From NCBI GenBank assembly GCA_015490805.1, contig WFXC01000044.1, forward strand, positions 1 through 64,000: DNA of 64,000 nt, read 5' to 3'. A program made the position numbers and the translations under genes. Origin of the DNA: Candidatus Kapaibacterium sp. Its GTDB lineage: Bacteria > Bacteroidota > Ignavibacteria > Kapaibacteriales > WFXC01. Under the pieces are notes generated by a model, which was not told the DNA's origin, made no database searches, and worked only from the letters and a program-made list of their open reading frames with translations. Positions 36,958 to 49,601 of the stretch are shown piece by piece (position 1 is the first letter of the stretch; every line of letters begins with the position of its first letter).

Positions 36958-38754
36958 TTATTGAGCTGGAATCTCAAAGATCGTCACCACTGTTTTGCGC
37001 GCATCCTGATCCAGACAGTACAGCCGAAGACGCTTGTCCACGTCGATCAGCGGAGCAGCTAACACCGATTCCTTCTTTGCTATGGGTGAGCGTAATCGAT
37101 ACGCCTTCCACAATTGGAACGGCTGACGCTGATAAATTTGCCATACGATGTCTCTGGTGCCAAAGTGATACCACACCACCGAAACCCATTCCGGCGTCAG
37201 GGTCAGGTCTATAGGATCAATAGGCGTATTGTATTTGAACCACCGGCGTCGCTCCTTGATATCCTCAGGAATTTGATCCCGGTACTTCCACGGACGCAAA
37301 ATGCTTTCAGAATAATACGCCTGGATTTGATAACTGCTGCCAGAGCGCAGCAGCAAAAGAGAATCGCTAAAAAGATTGAGATAGCCGCAGTCTTCCGTGT
37401 CGCAATCGATCAGCGGGAAAGATTTCCAGTAGCCAATGCCCAGCCACTGGCGATTTTGGGGTAAATCTCCATAATGACCGAGAAACTTCCCGGTGTTCAA
37501 ATCAAATTCCCATACTAAGGGATCGTTGGCTTCAAATTCAGCAGATTGAGGGTTTAAATAAGGCTTGTTTGGAAGATTGACCTTCCAGGCCATTTGTTTT
37601 TGTTTCCAGTTAGAAACGGGGAGAAGAGCTGTGTGCCAGGGAGAGATGATTACGTAGTGGAGAAAGTCGACGCCTACATATGTTGGAGCATCTGGAAACT
37701 GGATTTCGGCTTGTCGGATTATCTTACTCTTCTGATTAGGTGGCGTATAGAGTACCAGAATGTACCGTTTCCCCAGACTGATAGAGGTATCCAGTTCATC
37801 CCCGGAGCCCGGTCGGACTTCAAAACTGTCAATGACCGTATAGAAATGAACCGTTGCAAGAGTGTCACTGGTAGGGAAAAAGCCGAAACACAACATGAAT
37901 TGTGTCAGAAGTCCTAATTGGCTGACGAGTTTTCCTGCGCTGTCGATGGGAACTCTGCATAGTGCTCGCTGTAACGAATCGCTGGTTGTGATCTGCTGAA
38001 TCTCCTTGCCAGAGCGAAGATCATAGATCCGGAGAATTTCCTGATCAAGGTCCTCTATTACCAGCCATTTGCTGGACGGGGAACACCGCATTCCCTGAAG
38101 TCGTCCCGTTGTTGTCGTGCTGTCATCCTGCAAAGCTACGGTGTGCACTGGATGAAGTTCGGGCAATGCGTGAATGCTGCTGTCAAATTGGGAAGTGTAA
38201 GAGAAAGACTGTTCCCGGAATTCCGGAAGCAGCTTTTTCAGTTCAGGACGCAGAGGATCCCATTTTTCAAGATTTTTCACCAGGTGCTGAAAAAACTGAC
38301 CGGGAAGTAATCCTGCTAAGACCATACTGTGCAGCAATTGTCCCTGTGCGTTCCAGATCGTGAGCGTTGGCATCATCCGTGGTGGCAAATGCAGATCCTC
38401 AAAGATGCCAGCGGTGTCTAAGAAGACCGGAGCAGCCAGGCGGCGATAGGTGTACTTTATGATCTGTCGATCTGCCCAGTATCGCGTCTGCCGCATCAGA
38501 ACAATGACCGGACCCGGAAACTTGTATCGTCGAAGCATCATTGTTACCATTTGCATAGTACCAAATGCGTAGTTGAAAACCTTGTGTTCAAACAAAATCA
38601 CTGCGTAGTACTGGTAGTCCTGCGATGCTGGCGTAACCTGTCGTACAAATGCTCGGAGCTTTTCTGATTGGATCGGTAATTGCCGTGCTGGGAGCGATGG
38701 GGCGGTAAGGTACAACAGTGCAAGAGTGATCAGAGAACGGACGATCAGTCTCAT
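36958..38754 (-). CDS. Secreted protein with thioredoxin-like domain and propeller-like region, CxxC lost
   Basis: It is a paralog of the product starting at 41670 (shared HKVFNYAFG, KFPGPV/HFPGPV, LQDDSTT, KRYILV and WYHFGT..VWQIY). A signal peptide (about 1-24) precedes a thioredoxin-like domain at about 45-170; the position of the active-site CxxC is taken by HKVFNYAFG, but the cis-proline segment MMPTLTIW is kept. The remaining 400 residues contain repeated strands such as WLVIEDLDQEILRIYDLRSGKEIQ, suggesting a beta-propeller. A GTG at 38757 is an alternative start; AGGAG lies 8 nt before the ATG. It is preceded by promoter element A after a 240-nt leader. Function unknown. Confidence 0.75.
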   Translation of the reverse strand: MRLIVRSLITLALLYLTAPSLPARQLPIQSEKLRAFVRQVTPASQDYQYYAVILFEHKVFNYAFGTMQMVTMMLRRYKFPGPVIVLMRQTRYWADRQIIKYTYRRLAAPVFLDTAGIFEDLHLPPRMMPTLTIWNAQGQLLHSMVLAGLLPGQFFQHLVKNLEKWDPLRPELKKLLPEFREQSFSYTSQFDSSIHALPELHPVHTVALQDDSTTTTGRLQGMRCSPSSKWLVIEDLDQEILRIYDLRSGKEIQQITTSDSLQRALCRVPIDSAGKLVSQLGLLTQFMLCFGFFPTSDTLATVHFYTVIDSFEVRPGSGDELDTSISLGKRYILVLYTPPNQKSKIIRQAEIQFPDAPTYVGVDFLHYVIISPWHTALLPVSNWKQKQMAWKVNLPNKPYLNPQSAEFEANDPLVWEFDLNTGKFLGHYGDLPQNRQWLGIGYWKSFPLIDCDTEDCGYLNLFSDSLLLLRSGSSYQIQAYYSESILRPWKYRDQIPEDIKERRRWFKYNTPIDPIDLTLTPEWVSVVWYHFGTRDIVWQIYQRQPFQLWKAYRLRSPIAKKESVLAAPLIDVDKRLRLYCLDQDARKTVVTIFEIPAQ

Positions 38755-38997
38755 CACGGCTTCTCCTGTTTATTAGACTTTATGATAGTTCTCGCTTGCT
38801 GCGACTAAAGCAGGAAACCGCTGAGCAATGTCTCTGATTGACAAATTCACTCATTTTCATAGCAATGGGCATCCGGAAAGGAATTTTTGTTGAGTATCAA
38901 TTCACAGAAACTGCTTTTACTTTCCCACTAAAAGGTCATTCGCACCATTTCGTTGAAAAGCACCCATCTGGCGCTCTGTAACGCTCGATTTTAACTC

Positions 38998-39070: not shown

Positions 39071-39094
39071 TGGAAGCGCGCGCTTCAGCGTGCA
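39071..39094. repeat. Single GCGCGC-TTCA-GCGTGC palindromic module
   Basis: One isolated copy of the TTCA-loop hairpin module lies between promoter element A and the end of the small frame at 39095. It could serve as the transcript end for the sigma factor gene. Confidence 0.5.
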
Positions 39095-39238
39095 CTACCC
39101 ATAGCAGGATACTCCTTTGAGTTGTGCAGGGCAAACCAGCGGAATGCTCACCCGTCCGGCATCGGCTCCTGCGAATACCACACCGATGTTGTTGTCGTGC
39201 TCAGCGCGTACGAAGCATATCCCTATGAGCATCCGCAT
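39095..39238 (-). CDS. Possible 47-aa protein overlapping the 3' end of the sigma factor gene
   Basis: A frame opens with ATG inside the last codons of the sigma gene (16-bp overlap) and runs to 39095. It contains GVVFAGADAGRVSIPLVCP and three Cys, two in the last dozen residues (VSCYG end included). The amino-acid mix looks protein-like, but no clear ribosome site is seen and nothing is recognised. If translated it would be coupled to the sigma factor and could be a small regulator; that is speculation. Confidence 0.3.
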   Translation of the reverse strand: MRMLIGICFVRAEHDNNIGVVFAGADAGRVSIPLVCPAQLKGVSCYG

Positions 39239-39912
39239 TCTTCATCGAGAGGGTCAAGGATAACGACAACGGGAAAGGATGATTCCGGGGGGGGGGGATA
39301 GTTTTTCCGGATATCCTGAACGATTTGCCGGTGCAGCCGGCTGAGATTGGAGGAGTCGATTTTCAATTTTTTGTAGATGGCTTCCGGGAATACTTCCTCC
39401 ACACTCCGGGCAATGCCAGCACTGATTTCCCGCAACGTCCACCCTTCGACCCGCAGCCACAACAGCGCCCATCCTTCCACCCCAAAATGGCTGCATACGT
39501 GTTTGCGGATTTTCTGGAGATACAGCCGGAGCACTACGCTGGTATCCCCATCTTCACCTACGATGGCGATGTTGTCATCCAGCGGTTCCACGACGCAACT
39601 GGATGAGCGACGGCAGCAGTTTTTCATCAGATTGTCCAGGGTGGTAAACACATACTGGTACAACTGCCCCAGACTTTCCAGTGTGGTCATCTTGCCCATC
39701 GTCCGCAGCCATGCCTCCTGAATCGCATCCTCGTAGTCTTCTTTGCAGAAGCCGGGATAGCGTTGCGGCAGTTTGGCGAGCCACAGCGTCGACCACTGGC
39801 GATACGCCTGTTGCACTTCGGAACTGTACCACCAGGAAGGAAGCGCCCCGTTCACTTTCTCCGGACAATTCGGTTCTGCGGTCTGCTGGCGTTGCGATGA
39901 ATCATTTGCCAT
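39223..39912 (-). CDS. ECF-type RNA polymerase sigma factor with Cys-Gly-Cys tail and poly-G tract
   Basis: The 229 residues have sigma region 2 (about 60-110: YEDAIQEAWLRTMGKMTTLE, LYQYVFTTLDNLMKNCCRR) and region 4 (about 140-210: GWALLWLRVEGWTLREISAGI, NLSRLHRQIVQDIRK). No anti-sigma gene adjoins. The C-terminal tail reads NYPPPPESSFPVVVILD and ends EECGCS. The four prolines are encoded by an 11-C run (39287-39297 as G on the plus strand), so slippage would replace the tail. The start has AGGAG 7 nt upstream. It lies among genes carrying the shared 29-bp promoter element and is the obvious candidate to read it, though its own promoter lacks the element. Confidence 0.85.
   Translation of the reverse strand: MANDSSQRQQTAEPNCPEKVNGALPSWWYSSEVQQAYRQWSTLWLAKLPQRYPGFCKEDYEDAIQEAWLRTMGKMTTLESLGQLYQYVFTTLDNLMKNCCRRSSSCVVEPLDDNIAIVGEDGDTSVVLRLYLQKIRKHVCSHFGVEGWALLWLRVEGWTLREISAGIARSVEEVFPEAIYKKLKIDSSNLSRLHRQIVQDIRKNYPPPPESSFPVVVILDPLDEECGCS
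39287..39297. repeat. Poly-G (11) tract inside the sigma factor gene
   Basis: Eleven consecutive G on the plus strand (C in the gene). Ten or twelve bases give different tails without the Cys-Gly-Cys end: twelve stops at 39254, ten runs on about 30 codons. Such tracts mutate often by slippage and are also prone to sequencing error. Confidence 0.9.
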
Positions 39913-40099: not shown

Positions 40100-40960
40100 C
40101 TACCACAACACACCCAGTTGGGTTTCAACTTTATACTGTACTTTTTTGAGCACGCGCGGTTCATATTCCATCTGCACTGTCAGGCGAAGTCCAAGGAATT
40201 TCCAGAAGCGCCACTGGAGGAGTGATTTGAATAAGCAGCGCCACTGCTCACCGGCGTGGAGATTTGCCCGCCAGTTCCCCTGCAATTGGAGTCGCCACTG
40301 CCCTCCGTTAAGCTTCATTTGACTTTCGAGCGTTGTCTGGATTCCATATTCCGTATACCATCGTTCGACGCGGTCGCGTGTTTTCCGATTATCCGTGAGC
40401 TTTGTATGCCTGCGGGCTCTGATCTGCCGGAATTTCACCCCACCCTGCCATCCCAGAGATCCACCATCCCAGCGGTATCGATAGTGCCATCCCAGTTGCT
40501 GAGAGCTGGTCACAGGATCCCACCATTGGGCGACGGTCTGAAGTTCTCCACGTTTCAAAAGCATATTTCTCAACGGCGCGGTTTCAACGCCTACTGCCAG
40601 CAGCGGATTGACCTGCCATCCCAGCAACCATTCCCATTGCGCTTCGATGGAACAGTGATTTTCAGCAGGAAAGAAAAATTCTCCATCCTCCAGCTTGTGA
40701 TACACCCATTCCACATCCAGCTTTGCCAGGAAGCGCAGTTGCACAAATCCGATTTTCCATACGGGCTGAATCCGAACGCCCGTTCGGGATGCAATAAACA
40801 ATTGTTCTGCAACTTTCCAGTTCCGTGCAGCGCTCAGCATCAGCGTTGCATGCCCCTCGATCCAGGGCAACGACGTTCCTGCACTCGATGGAGGTGTTCC
40901 TGCCCCGGCAGGCAAGATCACCACCAGCATCAACGCCCAGCCAATGCACCATCCGTTCAC
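40100..40960 (-). CDS. Predicted outer-membrane beta-barrel protein
   Basis: A signal peptide (about 1-21) is followed by a chain of amphipathic strands with many Trp, Tyr and Arg, for example WHYRYRWDGGSLGWQGGVKF, and the protein ends VETQLGVLW with a C-terminal aromatic as outer-membrane barrels do. The layout recalls DUF3078-type barrels of Bacteroidota, but I cannot confirm that. Promoter element B lies 35 bp before the start. A decayed relative of its C-terminus (YEPxV followed by QY) remains on the same strand near 44065-44290. Confidence 0.65.
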   Translation of the reverse strand: MNGWCIGWALMLVVILPAGAGTPPSSAGTSLPWIEGHATLMLSAARNWKVAEQLFIASRTGVRIQPVWKIGFVQLRFLAKLDVEWVYHKLEDGEFFFPAENHCSIEAQWEWLLGWQVNPLLAVGVETAPLRNMLLKRGELQTVAQWWDPVTSSQQLGWHYRYRWDGGSLGWQGGVKFRQIRARRHTKLTDNRKTRDRVERWYTEYGIQTTLESQMKLNGGQWRLQLQGNWRANLHAGEQWRCLFKSLLQWRFWKFLGLRLTVQMEYEPRVLKKVQYKVETQLGVLW

Positions 40961-41640: not shown

Positions 41641-41669
41641 GTGCGCTGTAAACAAGAATGAGAGGAACT

Positions 41670-43457
41670 ATGAGGGTCAAAAAGCAGATAGTGCAGTGGT
41701 TGTGGTTGACCGCTATCTGCACGGTGTGCCTTTACTCGCAACAATCTGAACCATTGCAGTCGCAGAGTATCCTCAAGATTGCAAAGACAGTTTCTGGATC
41801 CTCCGGGCGGTATATTGCTGTCATTTTGTTTCAGCATAAAGTCTTCAATTACGCCTTTGGGATGATGAAAACAGTGGCTCAGACCTTGCAGTATCACCAC
41901 TTTCCGGGACCAGTGTTCGCAGTAATGCGGATGACCCGCCATTGGAGTGATCGAGCAATCGTACAGCGTGAATATAGTAAGCTATCAGTGCCTGTTGTGT
42001 TGGATACCTTTGGACTTTTCGAAGAACTCCAGATTCCTCTTCAGACCTTTCCTATACTCACAGTCTGGGACTCCACCGGTACACTGCGGTACTCTTCACA
42101 AATTCCTGCTGTACTGCAGGGTTCTATCTACCGAAAGCTTATCATGCGTTTGGATTCCCTGCCCTTTAGGAAAACCGTTGTTCGAAGCAAAGCGACCCAG
42201 ACCCAGTATAGCGATCCTTTTCGCAAGCACTTGCAAGCTTTGCCAACACTGGTGCCACAGGCACAAGTATTCTTGCAAGATGATAGTACAACGTACACAG
42301 GGCGATTACAAAGGCTACGATGTGCTCCTTCGGAACGCTTCATTGTTCTGGGAGATTTGGACCAGGAAGTAGTGCGAGTTTACCGTGCTGCCGACGGGAA
42401 AGAAATAACAACTATTACTACCACGCCCTGGCTACATCGATTGTTATCGCCTGTTCCTCTGGAAGCTCTAGATTCTTCATTCCATTCTTTGGGATTGTTG
42501 ACCCACTTTGCTGACTTCGGCACGTTCTATCCTACAACCAATACACTAATTGCTCATCACTTTTACACTGTTATAGACAGTGTGCTCATCCAGCGCAATT
42601 CCAACAAACAGCGACTTGACACGAACATTCGGTTGGGCAAACGCTATGTACTGGTGCGCTACACACCACCGTATGATTCCATCCACCATTGGGTTAAGCT
42701 GGATGCTCCAGATACCCCAGGCTATCTATCGATCCAATCTTTTATACCTACAATTTCACCGTGGGAAACTGCATTGTTCCCGGTTGATAACTGGGTGCAA
42801 CGAAACTCTCTCTCCGTTGTCGGGCTCGACGCTCCGACAGACCCTGCATCTGCTGAGTTTGAAGCCCACGATCCCCTGCTGTGGGAATTCAGTCTCCGTA
42901 GCGGGAAATTTGTTCGATCCTATGGTGATCTCAGTTACAACAGGAGTCTGTTGCGTATTGGATATTGGAACTCTCATCCCGCAGTTGATTGCGATGCTTC
43001 CGATTGTGCCTATCTGAATTACTATCACGACACATTGTATTTCATCCGATCCCAGACTGCGTATCCAATCGCTGCTTACTACACTTCTGCCGTATTGTAT
43101 CCCCAGCAGAATCAGGAGAATCCTATTCTCCAGATTGAGCCGAAGCAGAGAAAAGCGATGGTGAACTCTCTCTCACCGTTGCATCCAGTAGATCTCACCG
43201 TTGCGGATTCTTTGGTATCGATTGTATGGTATCACTTCGGCACTGGAGAAATAGTGTGGCAAATATATCATCGTATGCCGTTCCGCTTACTCAGGGAATA
43301 CCGCCTACCACCATCGCCGTTGGCTGCGCACTCGGTACTCCCAATGCCTCAAATCAAAGTCAGCAAGCAAATGAATCTATATCTTGTCGATCAATCGACA
43401 AGAAAAACGCTATTGTTGATCTATTCATATCCAAAAGAACGTAAATCCACAGGATAA
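41670..43457 (+). CDS. Secreted protein with thioredoxin-like domain and propeller-like region, CxxC lost
   Basis: It is the closest relative of the product starting at 38754, with shared segments along the whole 595 residues. A signal peptide (about 1-23) precedes a thioredoxin-like domain in which HKVFNYAFGMM replaces the CxxC site, while the cis-proline segment TFPILTVW remains. The C-terminal two thirds have propeller-like strands (VLGDLDQEVVRVYRAADGKEI). A loop with the DCDASDC cysteine pair is shared with the paralog (DCDTEDC). ATG at 41670 has AGAGG just upstream; ATG at 41658 is an alternative. It follows the 120-aa gene in the same cassette. Confidence 0.75.
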   Translation: MRVKKQIVQWLWLTAICTVCLYSQQSEPLQSQSILKIAKTVSGSSGRYIAVILFQHKVFNYAFGMMKTVAQTLQYHHFPGPVFAVMRMTRHWSDRAIVQREYSKLSVPVVLDTFGLFEELQIPLQTFPILTVWDSTGTLRYSSQIPAVLQGSIYRKLIMRLDSLPFRKTVVRSKATQTQYSDPFRKHLQALPTLVPQAQVFLQDDSTTYTGRLQRLRCAPSERFIVLGDLDQEVVRVYRAADGKEITTITTTPWLHRLLSPVPLEALDSSFHSLGLLTHFADFGTFYPTTNTLIAHHFYTVIDSVLIQRNSNKQRLDTNIRLGKRYVLVRYTPPYDSIHHWVKLDAPDTPGYLSIQSFIPTISPWETALFPVDNWVQRNSLSVVGLDAPTDPASAEFEAHDPLLWEFSLRSGKFVRSYGDLSYNRSLLRIGYWNSHPAVDCDASDCAYLNYYHDTLYFIRSQTAYPIAAYYTSAVLYPQQNQENPILQIEPKQRKAMVNSLSPLHPVDLTVADSLVSIVWYHFGTGEIVWQIYHRMPFRLLREYRLPPSPLAAHSVLPMPQIKVSKQMNLYLVDQSTRKTLLLIYSYPKERKSTG

Positions 43458-44725: not shown

Positions 44726-44964
44726 AATGAAAGATCAGATACTTGCGAGAAGCAAAAACAGATGTTTAGGAAGAGACAAGAAAAATCAGCTATTGATTGC
44801 TATCTGGAAAGTGGAACAATGGATGTTTATCAGTTTTGGGAGCACAGTCAAAATCAGGACACACATAGCCAGACAGCAGGATGAATTCTGGAATTATCTC
44901 CTGAAACCGATGTGGGCGAGCACTGGCAACTTCTCAAGCGTTTCCCCGGTATTTTTATCAAGTA
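44718..44964 (+). pseudogene. Frameshifted copy of the small cysteine-protein gene at 49263
   Basis: DNA is clearly homologous to 49195-49455. One frame encodes CYLESGTMDVYQ (intact copy CYLENGAKTMEVYQ) and another encodes STVKIRTHIARQQDEFW (intact STVKIKVRIARQQDLLW), so a single-base indel broke it. The 3' half with the later cysteines is lost. The in-frame 6-bp size difference before MDVYQ shows the upstream part was once coding. Confidence 0.6.
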
Positions 44965-44997
44965 AGCAGAGAAACGTTTACTAACTGCGGAGGAGTT

Positions 44998-46923
44998 ATG
45001 CAACAGCGTTGTTTTCGATGGTATGCGGTAGGTTTGCTGCTTGTGCTACCTGCTCTATTGATGGCACAGCAGAACAGTGAAGCTCAGGGAGCAAAGAAAG
45101 ATTCAGCAAAGCAACAATCGGTCGTTATATTACCTTCGCAGATTACGGTTCCTGATACTCTGCAACCTCTGATGTCAGCGTGGCTGGCAGAAATTTTTGG
45201 GTCCAATGTCCGCTCGCCTTTTGTTACAGTTGTACTCCAACCAGGCCTCTGTTCTCGGTGTGAAGCCTATCTTCCCCATCTCCTTGATATAACACTCCAT
45301 GTTGATAGTGCTCTGAAGAATAACATTGCCTTAGTTGTTCATTCTCTCTCTCCTGGCACTGTGGATATGCTGAAAGAAGAGTACCCTTATAGAGATTACT
45401 CTATCGTTCACTATGACTCTACAGGCATTATTGAAAAAATCGTTCCCAGCGGAATGCCCTATTACATTATCTGGGATGCGGCGGGAAAACCCCTGTATAG
45501 TGCTCTTCTCTTCGGACGGGTTGATATTGAGGAACTCCAGACTGTACTACAGCAGGCATTGCGCAACCGCCAGCCGTTAAATCTGACAGCCGAGATGCGA
45601 CTCCCGAAAAAAGTGAATTCTGCAGCCCAATGTACATTGGGGTTTCAATCGGACGGAGTATATCGCTGGTCTGCTCAGAAGGAATACGTACTGTCGAACT
45701 CATTTTTTTCGCTAGGGCGGTCAAGCATTACGGGTATTTTTCCTCAACTCCATCTTTTTGCATTTGAGACGGATATTCTACGGTCCTACGTTCTGTATAG
45801 CCTTGACAACGACAGCCTGTTCTGCATTCTGCAAATTCCTGAAGAGGCAATTCTCCAGCATATTAGCATTGATAGCTTAAGCGTTATTAGGATGAAACGC
45901 CTGGGATTATTACGTCCCATTCTAACCGGTGGACTACAAATTGCTCCATCTGCCACTGTCCAGGAGTTATACTTACCTCAAATCTTTTACGAGCAGAAAG
46001 AAAGCGGGGATTCAGTTATTGGTGCTTCTACTATTCAAAATATTGCTTTTCTCACCGTAGATCCTTTAAAGCAATGTTTAGCAATAGATACTCTGTTTCC
46101 TGTTCCCTTCGAAGAAGAGTATATAGGGGTTCTCAGTGATGTTTATCAAACACCTCTTCCTGATCTGACTCGCACCAAATTATTATACAGACTAACAAAG
46201 GGCGTTCCTTTTACTTCGTATGCATACCGAAAAGGAAGTATTCTCCGAGATCGCTTCTATGATTCCGCCTTCGCCTTCGCTCTCTATGACATCAATGCCC
46301 AACGTTTTACTATCCTGCCAATCAGGCTACCCGACGTTTATCGGCGCCTCAAAATTGGCTATGGTCCCCTGCTTCCTCATTCTGGATGTTTCCTGGATTC
46401 CAATCGCTATGCAGCCGTCTATCCCCTTTCTCCCTACCTCTGGATCTACGGTCCTCACACGATCGATACGATTCCACTCCGATCTTATGCGACCCTCAAA
46501 CAGCAGGTGCAGAAAATTGCCCGTGTGCTGCGCTCGGCGCATCAGGCAATTCGTGATACCAATGCCTTTTTTGAAAATTACAGCGAGATCGTTGATACGA
46601 CGAAATCGCTTCTGCAACTTGTTCTTATGGACATTGATCAAATCAATGACTCATTAATAGCTGTCTACTACAGAGTTCAATTACCCCAACGTAGAGCCTA
46701 TCGTTCTGGAGGAATAATGCCTTCGATATTATGCGAGCTTTACAACATACATACAAAGCAGTATCTGACTTCGTTTTCTGCTGGAACTACTCATCCTGGG
46801 AAGCAATGCGGTATTCTATGGTTCTACCACATTCCCGGAACGCCGTGGAATACCCACTGGTATCTGGTCAGTTGGGAAGGCAACCGGATGCGAGTTACGG
46901 AGTTCCACATAGACAGACAATAA
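44998..46923 (+). CDS. Secreted thioredoxin-like/propeller protein with CxxC
   Basis: The 641 residues begin with a signal peptide (about 1-23, VLPALLMAQQ). A thioredoxin-like domain follows with an intact CSRC (GLCSRCEAYLPHLLDI) and cis-proline GMPYYIIW. The rest, about 420 residues, has strand-rich repeats and resembles the propeller part of its neighbours weakly. Codon use is more A+T-rich than the flanking housekeeping genes. GGAGG lies just before the ATG. It is the second gene of cassette D, whose small-protein gene is broken. The role may be thiol chemistry on exported proteins (inference). Confidence 0.75.
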   Translation: MQQRCFRWYAVGLLLVLPALLMAQQNSEAQGAKKDSAKQQSVVILPSQITVPDTLQPLMSAWLAEIFGSNVRSPFVTVVLQPGLCSRCEAYLPHLLDITLHVDSALKNNIALVVHSLSPGTVDMLKEEYPYRDYSIVHYDSTGIIEKIVPSGMPYYIIWDAAGKPLYSALLFGRVDIEELQTVLQQALRNRQPLNLTAEMRLPKKVNSAAQCTLGFQSDGVYRWSAQKEYVLSNSFFSLGRSSITGIFPQLHLFAFETDILRSYVLYSLDNDSLFCILQIPEEAILQHISIDSLSVIRMKRLGLLRPILTGGLQIAPSATVQELYLPQIFYEQKESGDSVIGASTIQNIAFLTVDPLKQCLAIDTLFPVPFEEEYIGVLSDVYQTPLPDLTRTKLLYRLTKGVPFTSYAYRKGSILRDRFYDSAFAFALYDINAQRFTILPIRLPDVYRRLKIGYGPLLPHSGCFLDSNRYAAVYPLSPYLWIYGPHTIDTIPLRSYATLKQQVQKIARVLRSAHQAIRDTNAFFENYSEIVDTTKSLLQLVLMDIDQINDSLIAVYYRVQLPQRRAYRSGGIMPSILCELYNIHTKQYLTSFSAGTTHPGKQCGILWFYHIPGTPWNTHWYLVSWEGNRMRVTEFHIDRQ

Positions 46924-49262: not shown

Positions 49263-49601
49263 TTGGTTGTTTATTGCTATCTGGAAAATGGTGCAAAAAC
49301 AATGGAAGTTTATCAGTCTGAGAGTACAGTAAAAATCAAGGTACGCATAGCCAGACAGCAAGATCTACTCTGGAAGTGTTCTTTAGAACCAGGACAGAGA
49401 GTAACGATGACTTGCCAGTGGGTTCCTTGCTGTTTTTATCAAGTAACTGCTTCCTGTGTTTGGGGATTTACCGATCCTGAAAATGGGGAGGGAATTGGGT
49501 GGACCGATGCAGAAGTATGCTTCCATCCGGATACTCGTACCGGGTATGTGAGAAGTTTGCCAGATACGCAGGAATTCCATCGCTACAGCGAGTGGGAATA
49601 G
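49263..49601 (+). CDS. Small cysteine-rich protein (up to 112 aa) of cassette E
   Basis: The frame opens after a TAA at 49254. It can start at TTG 49263 (112 aa) or ATG 49302 (99 aa); neither has a well-spaced ribosome site. Conservation with the decayed copy at 44718 continues upstream of the ATG with an in-frame indel, which favours the longer form. Eight Cys are present, including WKCSL, MTCQWVPCCFYQ, ASCVWG and EVCFH. No signal peptide is visible, unlike the small proteins at 41236 and 51656. It is not recognised. The next gene starts 2 bp after its stop, so the pair is translationally coupled. Confidence 0.55.
   Translation: MVVYCYLENGAKTMEVYQSESTVKIKVRIARQQDLLWKCSLEPGQRVTMTCQWVPCCFYQVTASCVWGFTDPENGEGIGWTDAEVCFHPDTRTGYVRSLPDTQEFHRYSEWE

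Follow-up and report, generated by a model that had tools for sequence, protein, structure and literature searches.

A guanine tract at the 3′ end of a sigma-like gene as a candidate site of C-terminal phase variation in an uncultured Kapabacteria lineage

Results

An eleven-base tract sets the reading frame of the C-terminus of a sigma-like protein

Within the window, the stretch of 64,000 nucleotides that was analysed, a sigma-like gene carries an uninterrupted run of eleven G near its 3′ end. Our best explanation, which we put at about an even chance, is that this run is a hypermutable homopolymer at the end of a functional gene and hence a candidate site of C-terminal phase variation. The window comes from contig C44 of genome G000, a single MAG of 2.67 Mb in 48 contigs, and was compared with the two sister genomes of the same genus, G001 and G002. 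The features concerned are as follows.

39223..39912, minus strand: sigma-like ORF of 229 aa, with a Pfam Sigma70_r2 match at the cut-off and a G001 ortholog that is 97% identical over codons 1 to 151
39287..39297, minus strand: C11 tract on the coding strand (G11 on the plus strand; codons Pro206 to Pro209), described by its sequence, a frame analysis and chance estimates
39223..39286, minus strand: C-terminal tail ESSFPVVVILDPLDEECGCS and stop codon, the last 13 residues being the same in G001, where two silent changes occur

In agreement with an earlier note on this DNA, the eleven bases at 39287 to 39297 code for prolines; they form codons 206 to 209 of 229 (CCC CCC CCC CCG), so that a long homopolymer lies close to the 3′ end of the coding region. 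When the length of the tract was changed in silico, 8, 11, or 14 bases gave the tail ...VVVILDPLDEECGCS before the stop codon, 9, 12, or 15 bases led to an early stop after ...GIILSRCRYP (at position 39254 in the 12-base form), and 7, 10, or 13 bases gave the cysteine-free tail ...SLSLTLSMKNADAHRDMLRTR. The resulting proteins comprise 236 aa with 10 bases, 229 aa with 11, and 219 aa with 12. The same note had described these three outcomes, including the terminal EECGCS of the 11-base form and the longer tail without cysteine of the 10-base form; its statement that only 11 bases keep the frame has to be widened to 8 and 14 bases. In all cases, the alternative frames change the C-terminus and keep the body of the protein.

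Slipped-strand mispairing at replication would add or remove single G:C pairs in the tract. Lengths of 8, 11, and 14 bases would retain the conserved tail ...VILDPLDEECGCS, and all other lengths would put a short or unrelated tail in its place while the sigma body remained untouched. As the body is left intact by a change in the tract, slippage would alter the protein without turning it off. The tract may vary in length within the population, and loss of the tail might alter sigma activity.

The sigma-like body appears to be under purifying selection

The assignment to the sigma factors is borderline, since the match to sigma region 2 (PF04542, Sigma70_r2; E = 3e-5) scores 24.1 bits with a cut-off of 24. 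It is the sole Pfam match of the 229-aa ORF, and no Pfam match to region 4 was obtained. The weak match to TIGR02937 lies below the cut-off (E = 9e-5) and reaches residue 172, and a search of solved structures by sequence returned no sigma match. In a single-sequence structure model of low confidence (mean pLDDT 40) the last helix ends at residue 204. We infer the placement of the tract just after sigma region 4, as the earlier note had it, from the layout, into which a region 4 would plausibly fit.

Over codons 1 to 151, the G001 ortholog is 97% identical, and the differences are distributed 5/1/13 across codon positions 1, 2, and 3. The crude dN/dS of 0.09 for this comparison points to purifying selection on the sigma-like body. 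When 123 genomes of the order were searched, a close homolog turned up in G001 and in no other; viral contigs gave no match, and among genome contigs the G001 record was the only one. We did not count the apparent lack of the gene in G002 as evidence, since contigs C89 and C4 each break off within the region.

A sister genome favours the 11-base frame for the tail

The position of the tract is an assembly gap in both G001 and G002, and the count of its bases comes from the window alone. In G001 it falls into the 194 bp that are absent between contigs C63 and C15, the latter of which starts inside the tail; it reads CGTTATCCTTGATCCTCTCGATGAAGAATGTGGATGCTCATAG and encodes VILDPLDEECGCS followed by the stop codon, and its two differences from the window are silent. 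In the 10-base frame, the same stretch differs at four amino acids between the window and G001 (LSLTLSMKNADAHRDMLRTR against LSLILSMKNVDAHRDTLHTR). The identity of VILDPLDEECGCS despite two silent changes, set against four amino acid changes in the 10-base frame, favours the 11-base frame as the one that is probably maintained, a judgement resting on two substitutions. The layout of a slippage switch proposed in the earlier note stands as a layout: it fits published C-terminal phase variation, and the tail frame is conserved in the sister genome G001.

The conserved tail also bears on the possibility that the count of eleven is an assembly error. Homopolymers are error-prone, the sequence comes from a single MAG, and contigs end near such tracts: C6 starts with a run of 19 C, C27 ends about 200 bp past a tract, and G001 breaks around the sigma tract itself. 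Eleven bases do, however, put the tail in the very frame that G001 conserves, and we consider a miscount to be the least probable of the explanations weighed here.

Long G/C runs are more frequent in the genome than expected

Extrapolation from the run lengths of the window itself predicts about 0.003 runs of at least 11 bases in the window and 0.11 in the genome, and dinucleotide-shuffled versions of the window contained a mean of 0.04. In the whole of G000, three internal runs of 11 were observed in addition to the run of 19 C at a contig end. The decay of the counts with length is abnormal, with five runs of 8 bases, one of 9, two of 10, and three of 11. That the counts do not drop with length as expected is the pattern that growth by slippage would give, and runs of 11 bases are of the kind that usually varies in length.

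The sigma tract is one of a small set in the genus

Reading the other long tracts of G000 placed the sigma tract in a small set within the genus, some members of which lie in control positions. The first concerns a subtilase gene (Peptidase_S8, E = 6e-32), in which the tract lies inside an apparent signal peptide, M(K/R)KLRLFLFFLFLF-GGG-DIVAQ, and the second concerns two paralogous chemoreceptor (MCP) genes (MCPsignal, E = 6e-47 and 1e-49).

G000 C15:45158-45168 (L053:4159-4169), L058:4079-4089, and L059:4021-4029: poly-G tracts of the subtilase gene in the three genomes
L052:3993-4003, L055:3940-3949, and L060:4011-4024: poly-G tracts upstream of MCP genes

The subtilase tract was assembled with 11 bases in G000, 11 in G001, and 9 in G002, all of which are out of frame; of the lengths from 8 to 12, a tract of 10 is the one that brings the ATG into frame with the body. 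The bodies are nevertheless open over 761 to 764 aa, and their dN/dS of about 0.15 indicates that the subtilase body is under purifying selection. Out-of-frame lengths together with an open, selected body are the trace expected of reversible ON/OFF switching, for which the gene is a candidate, although a shared assembly error or slippage during expression could mimic it. Because of the lengths of 11, 11, and 9 against the 10 required and the purifying selection on the body, we regard the subtilase tract as a stronger contingency candidate than the sigma tract, which it supports as the tract of another gene, one whose length does differ among genomes of the genus. The MCP tracts lie about 120 bp upstream of the start codons, and one of them reads G6-A-G10 in G000 and is an unbroken G14 in the G002 ortholog, making transcriptional phase variation possible. 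Further long runs are a G10 that lies 3′-terminally in a response-regulator/histidine-kinase gene (L056:3994-4003) and a C9 within a long repeat protein of G000.

Runs of the CCC-C type are known shift-prone sites, so the C11 message (CCC CCC CCC CCG) might itself be a site of +1 ribosomal frameshifting at the proline codons or of RNA polymerase slippage, by which one DNA sequence would yield mixed tails. Slippage of this kind could also explain why the subtilase is under purifying selection although none of the three assemblies has it in frame. Against it, the amino acids of the tail in the 10-base frame are not conserved, and the G/C-tract lengths in the genus differ already in the DNA, making this a very improbable account of the sigma tract.

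The kinase tract bears on a more serious alternative. The kinase orthologs in G001 and G002 end at about the same place, and the tract is missing from both, showing that a tract of this type can emerge where little may depend on the frame, and counting against a switch. By analogy with this lineage-specific case, the sigma tract could be neutral: a linker of four prolines close to the end of the gene would tolerate a homopolymer grown by slippage, and its length changes would not be selected as a switch, with purifying selection holding the 11-base form and the variants being mildly deleterious or neutral. The position of the tract after the last helix predicted by the low-confidence model agrees with this explanation, as does the conserved tail, which suggests selection against loss of the frame. 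On the other side, long tracts are in excess in genes for signalling and secreted proteins of the genus, at least one of them with a switch-like signature. Taken on its own, neutrality falls somewhat short of an even chance and is nearly as likely as C-terminal phase variation.

Neither a CorE-like sensing tail nor control of the neighbouring array is supported

The earlier note had gone beyond the layout in proposing that the tract might toggle a CorE-like tail that senses metals or thiols and governs the neighbouring array. The genes next to the sigma gene are listed here.

40100..40960, minus strand: 286-aa protein encoded upstream of the sigma gene in the same orientation, conserved beside the sigma gene in G001 (96%)
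36958..38757, minus strand: exported-type protein of 599 aa, encoded downstream of the sigma gene, a paralog of 41658, absent here in G001 and present in G002
41658..43457, plus strand: paralog of 599 aa that shares 45% identity with 36958 and is missing here in G001

The two 599-aa genes at 36958-38757 and 41658-43457 flank the sigma region and belong to no clear Pfam family; in G002, this place contains the 3′-terminal part of 36958. The intergenic stretch 39071 to 39094 contains a dispersed short repeat, approximately GCACGCTGAAGCG.GCGCTTCC, that occurs in dozens of places in each of G000, G001, and G002.

CorE carries a C-terminal domain of 38 residues with six cysteines, four of them invariant, and a CXC motif in the linker (PMC3107203, PMC8999054), the latter being missing from some members of ECF238 (PMC8999054). 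The sigma-like protein resembles the CorE-type groups ECF44 and ECF238 in having cysteines in a C-terminal extension and, as far as the Pfam scan of the immediate neighbours goes, no recognised anti-sigma gene next door (PMC3107203, PMC8999054). That no anti-sigma factor is encoded nearby is consistent with the Pfam scan, which covered the immediate neighbours, some of them unknown proteins. Further in favour of a CorE-like sensor, the tail ends in a CGC motif, the protein is the richest in cysteine among the window genes examined (8 of 229 residues, or 3.5%, compared with a mean of 0.87%), and some array proteins have CxxC in thioredoxin-like regions. Unlike the six-cysteine domain of CorE, where at least four cysteines are conserved, the short tail after the tract contains two, both in the CGC motif, and the linker lacks CXC, reading NCCRRSSSC in the window and NWCRRSSSC in G001. 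Membership of the CorE group was rejected on these two grounds.

Control of the whole array fares no better, as the sigma gene is kept in G001 without either of the two flanking 599-aa paralogs and the array was found to have no promoter motif in common with the sigma gene. Of the spaced motif pairs, the best one occurred in 3 of 11 upstream regions (44998, 47454, and 49499), and the region upstream of the sigma gene was not among them. Blocks that have since diverged, CATAGCCAGACAGCA...CTGGAA and TTTTTATCAAGTAA, are common to the upstream regions of 44998 (44838-44998) and 49499 (49339-49499) and may stem from duplication of a leader. Taken together, a sensing tail that governs the array is improbable, and from the interpretation in the earlier note the switch layout is retained, whereas CorE-like metal sensing and control of the whole array are not. 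The four-fold enrichment in cysteine and the CxxC motifs of nearby exported proteins, one of them within a weak thioredoxin-like match, may reflect a redox theme around the sigma-like gene.

Discussion

Poly-G tracts of at least 10 bases near the 3′ end of genes varied within the sequenced population of Helicobacter canadensis, where they were described as C-terminal phase variation (PMC2823697), and the same type of variation by 3′ poly-G tracts is known from Neisseria gonorrhoeae (PMC5320596). The sigma-like gene shares with these cases a poly-G/C tract of at least 10 bases near the 3′ end and three frames that yield different short C-termini without affecting the body (PMC2823697, PMC5320596). 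It differs in that variation between strains or within a population was seen in those two species, whereas here the layout is known from one assembly, and in its target, a sigma-like regulator of an uncultured and apparently environmental lineage. A precedent for a coding-region homopolymer in a regulatory gene is bvgS of Bordetella pertussis, where, as might be the case here, slippage changes the output of a regulon; the change from C6 to C7 in bvgS truncates and inactivates the protein, whereas in the sigma-like gene the tail alone would change (PMC1891110). A phase-variable tail of a sigma factor was not found in the literature searched, of which the coverage was partial. We describe the sigma tract as a new candidate of an already known type of switch.

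A more far-reaching interpretation, which we consider unlikely but well above the sensing tail proposed earlier, is that the gene encodes an alternative sigma factor with a regulatory tail that a contingency tract exchanges. The gene would then belong, in this uncultured Kapabacteria lineage, to a small poly-G set comprising chemoreceptors, a secreted protease, a kinase, and a sigma factor, and loss of the tail would change a regulon stochastically. With a sigma factor as the target, a single slippage event could alter a regulon. The set of tracts in the genus, above all the one in the signal peptide of the subtilase, makes contingency switching in this uncultured lineage testable with existing metagenomic reads.
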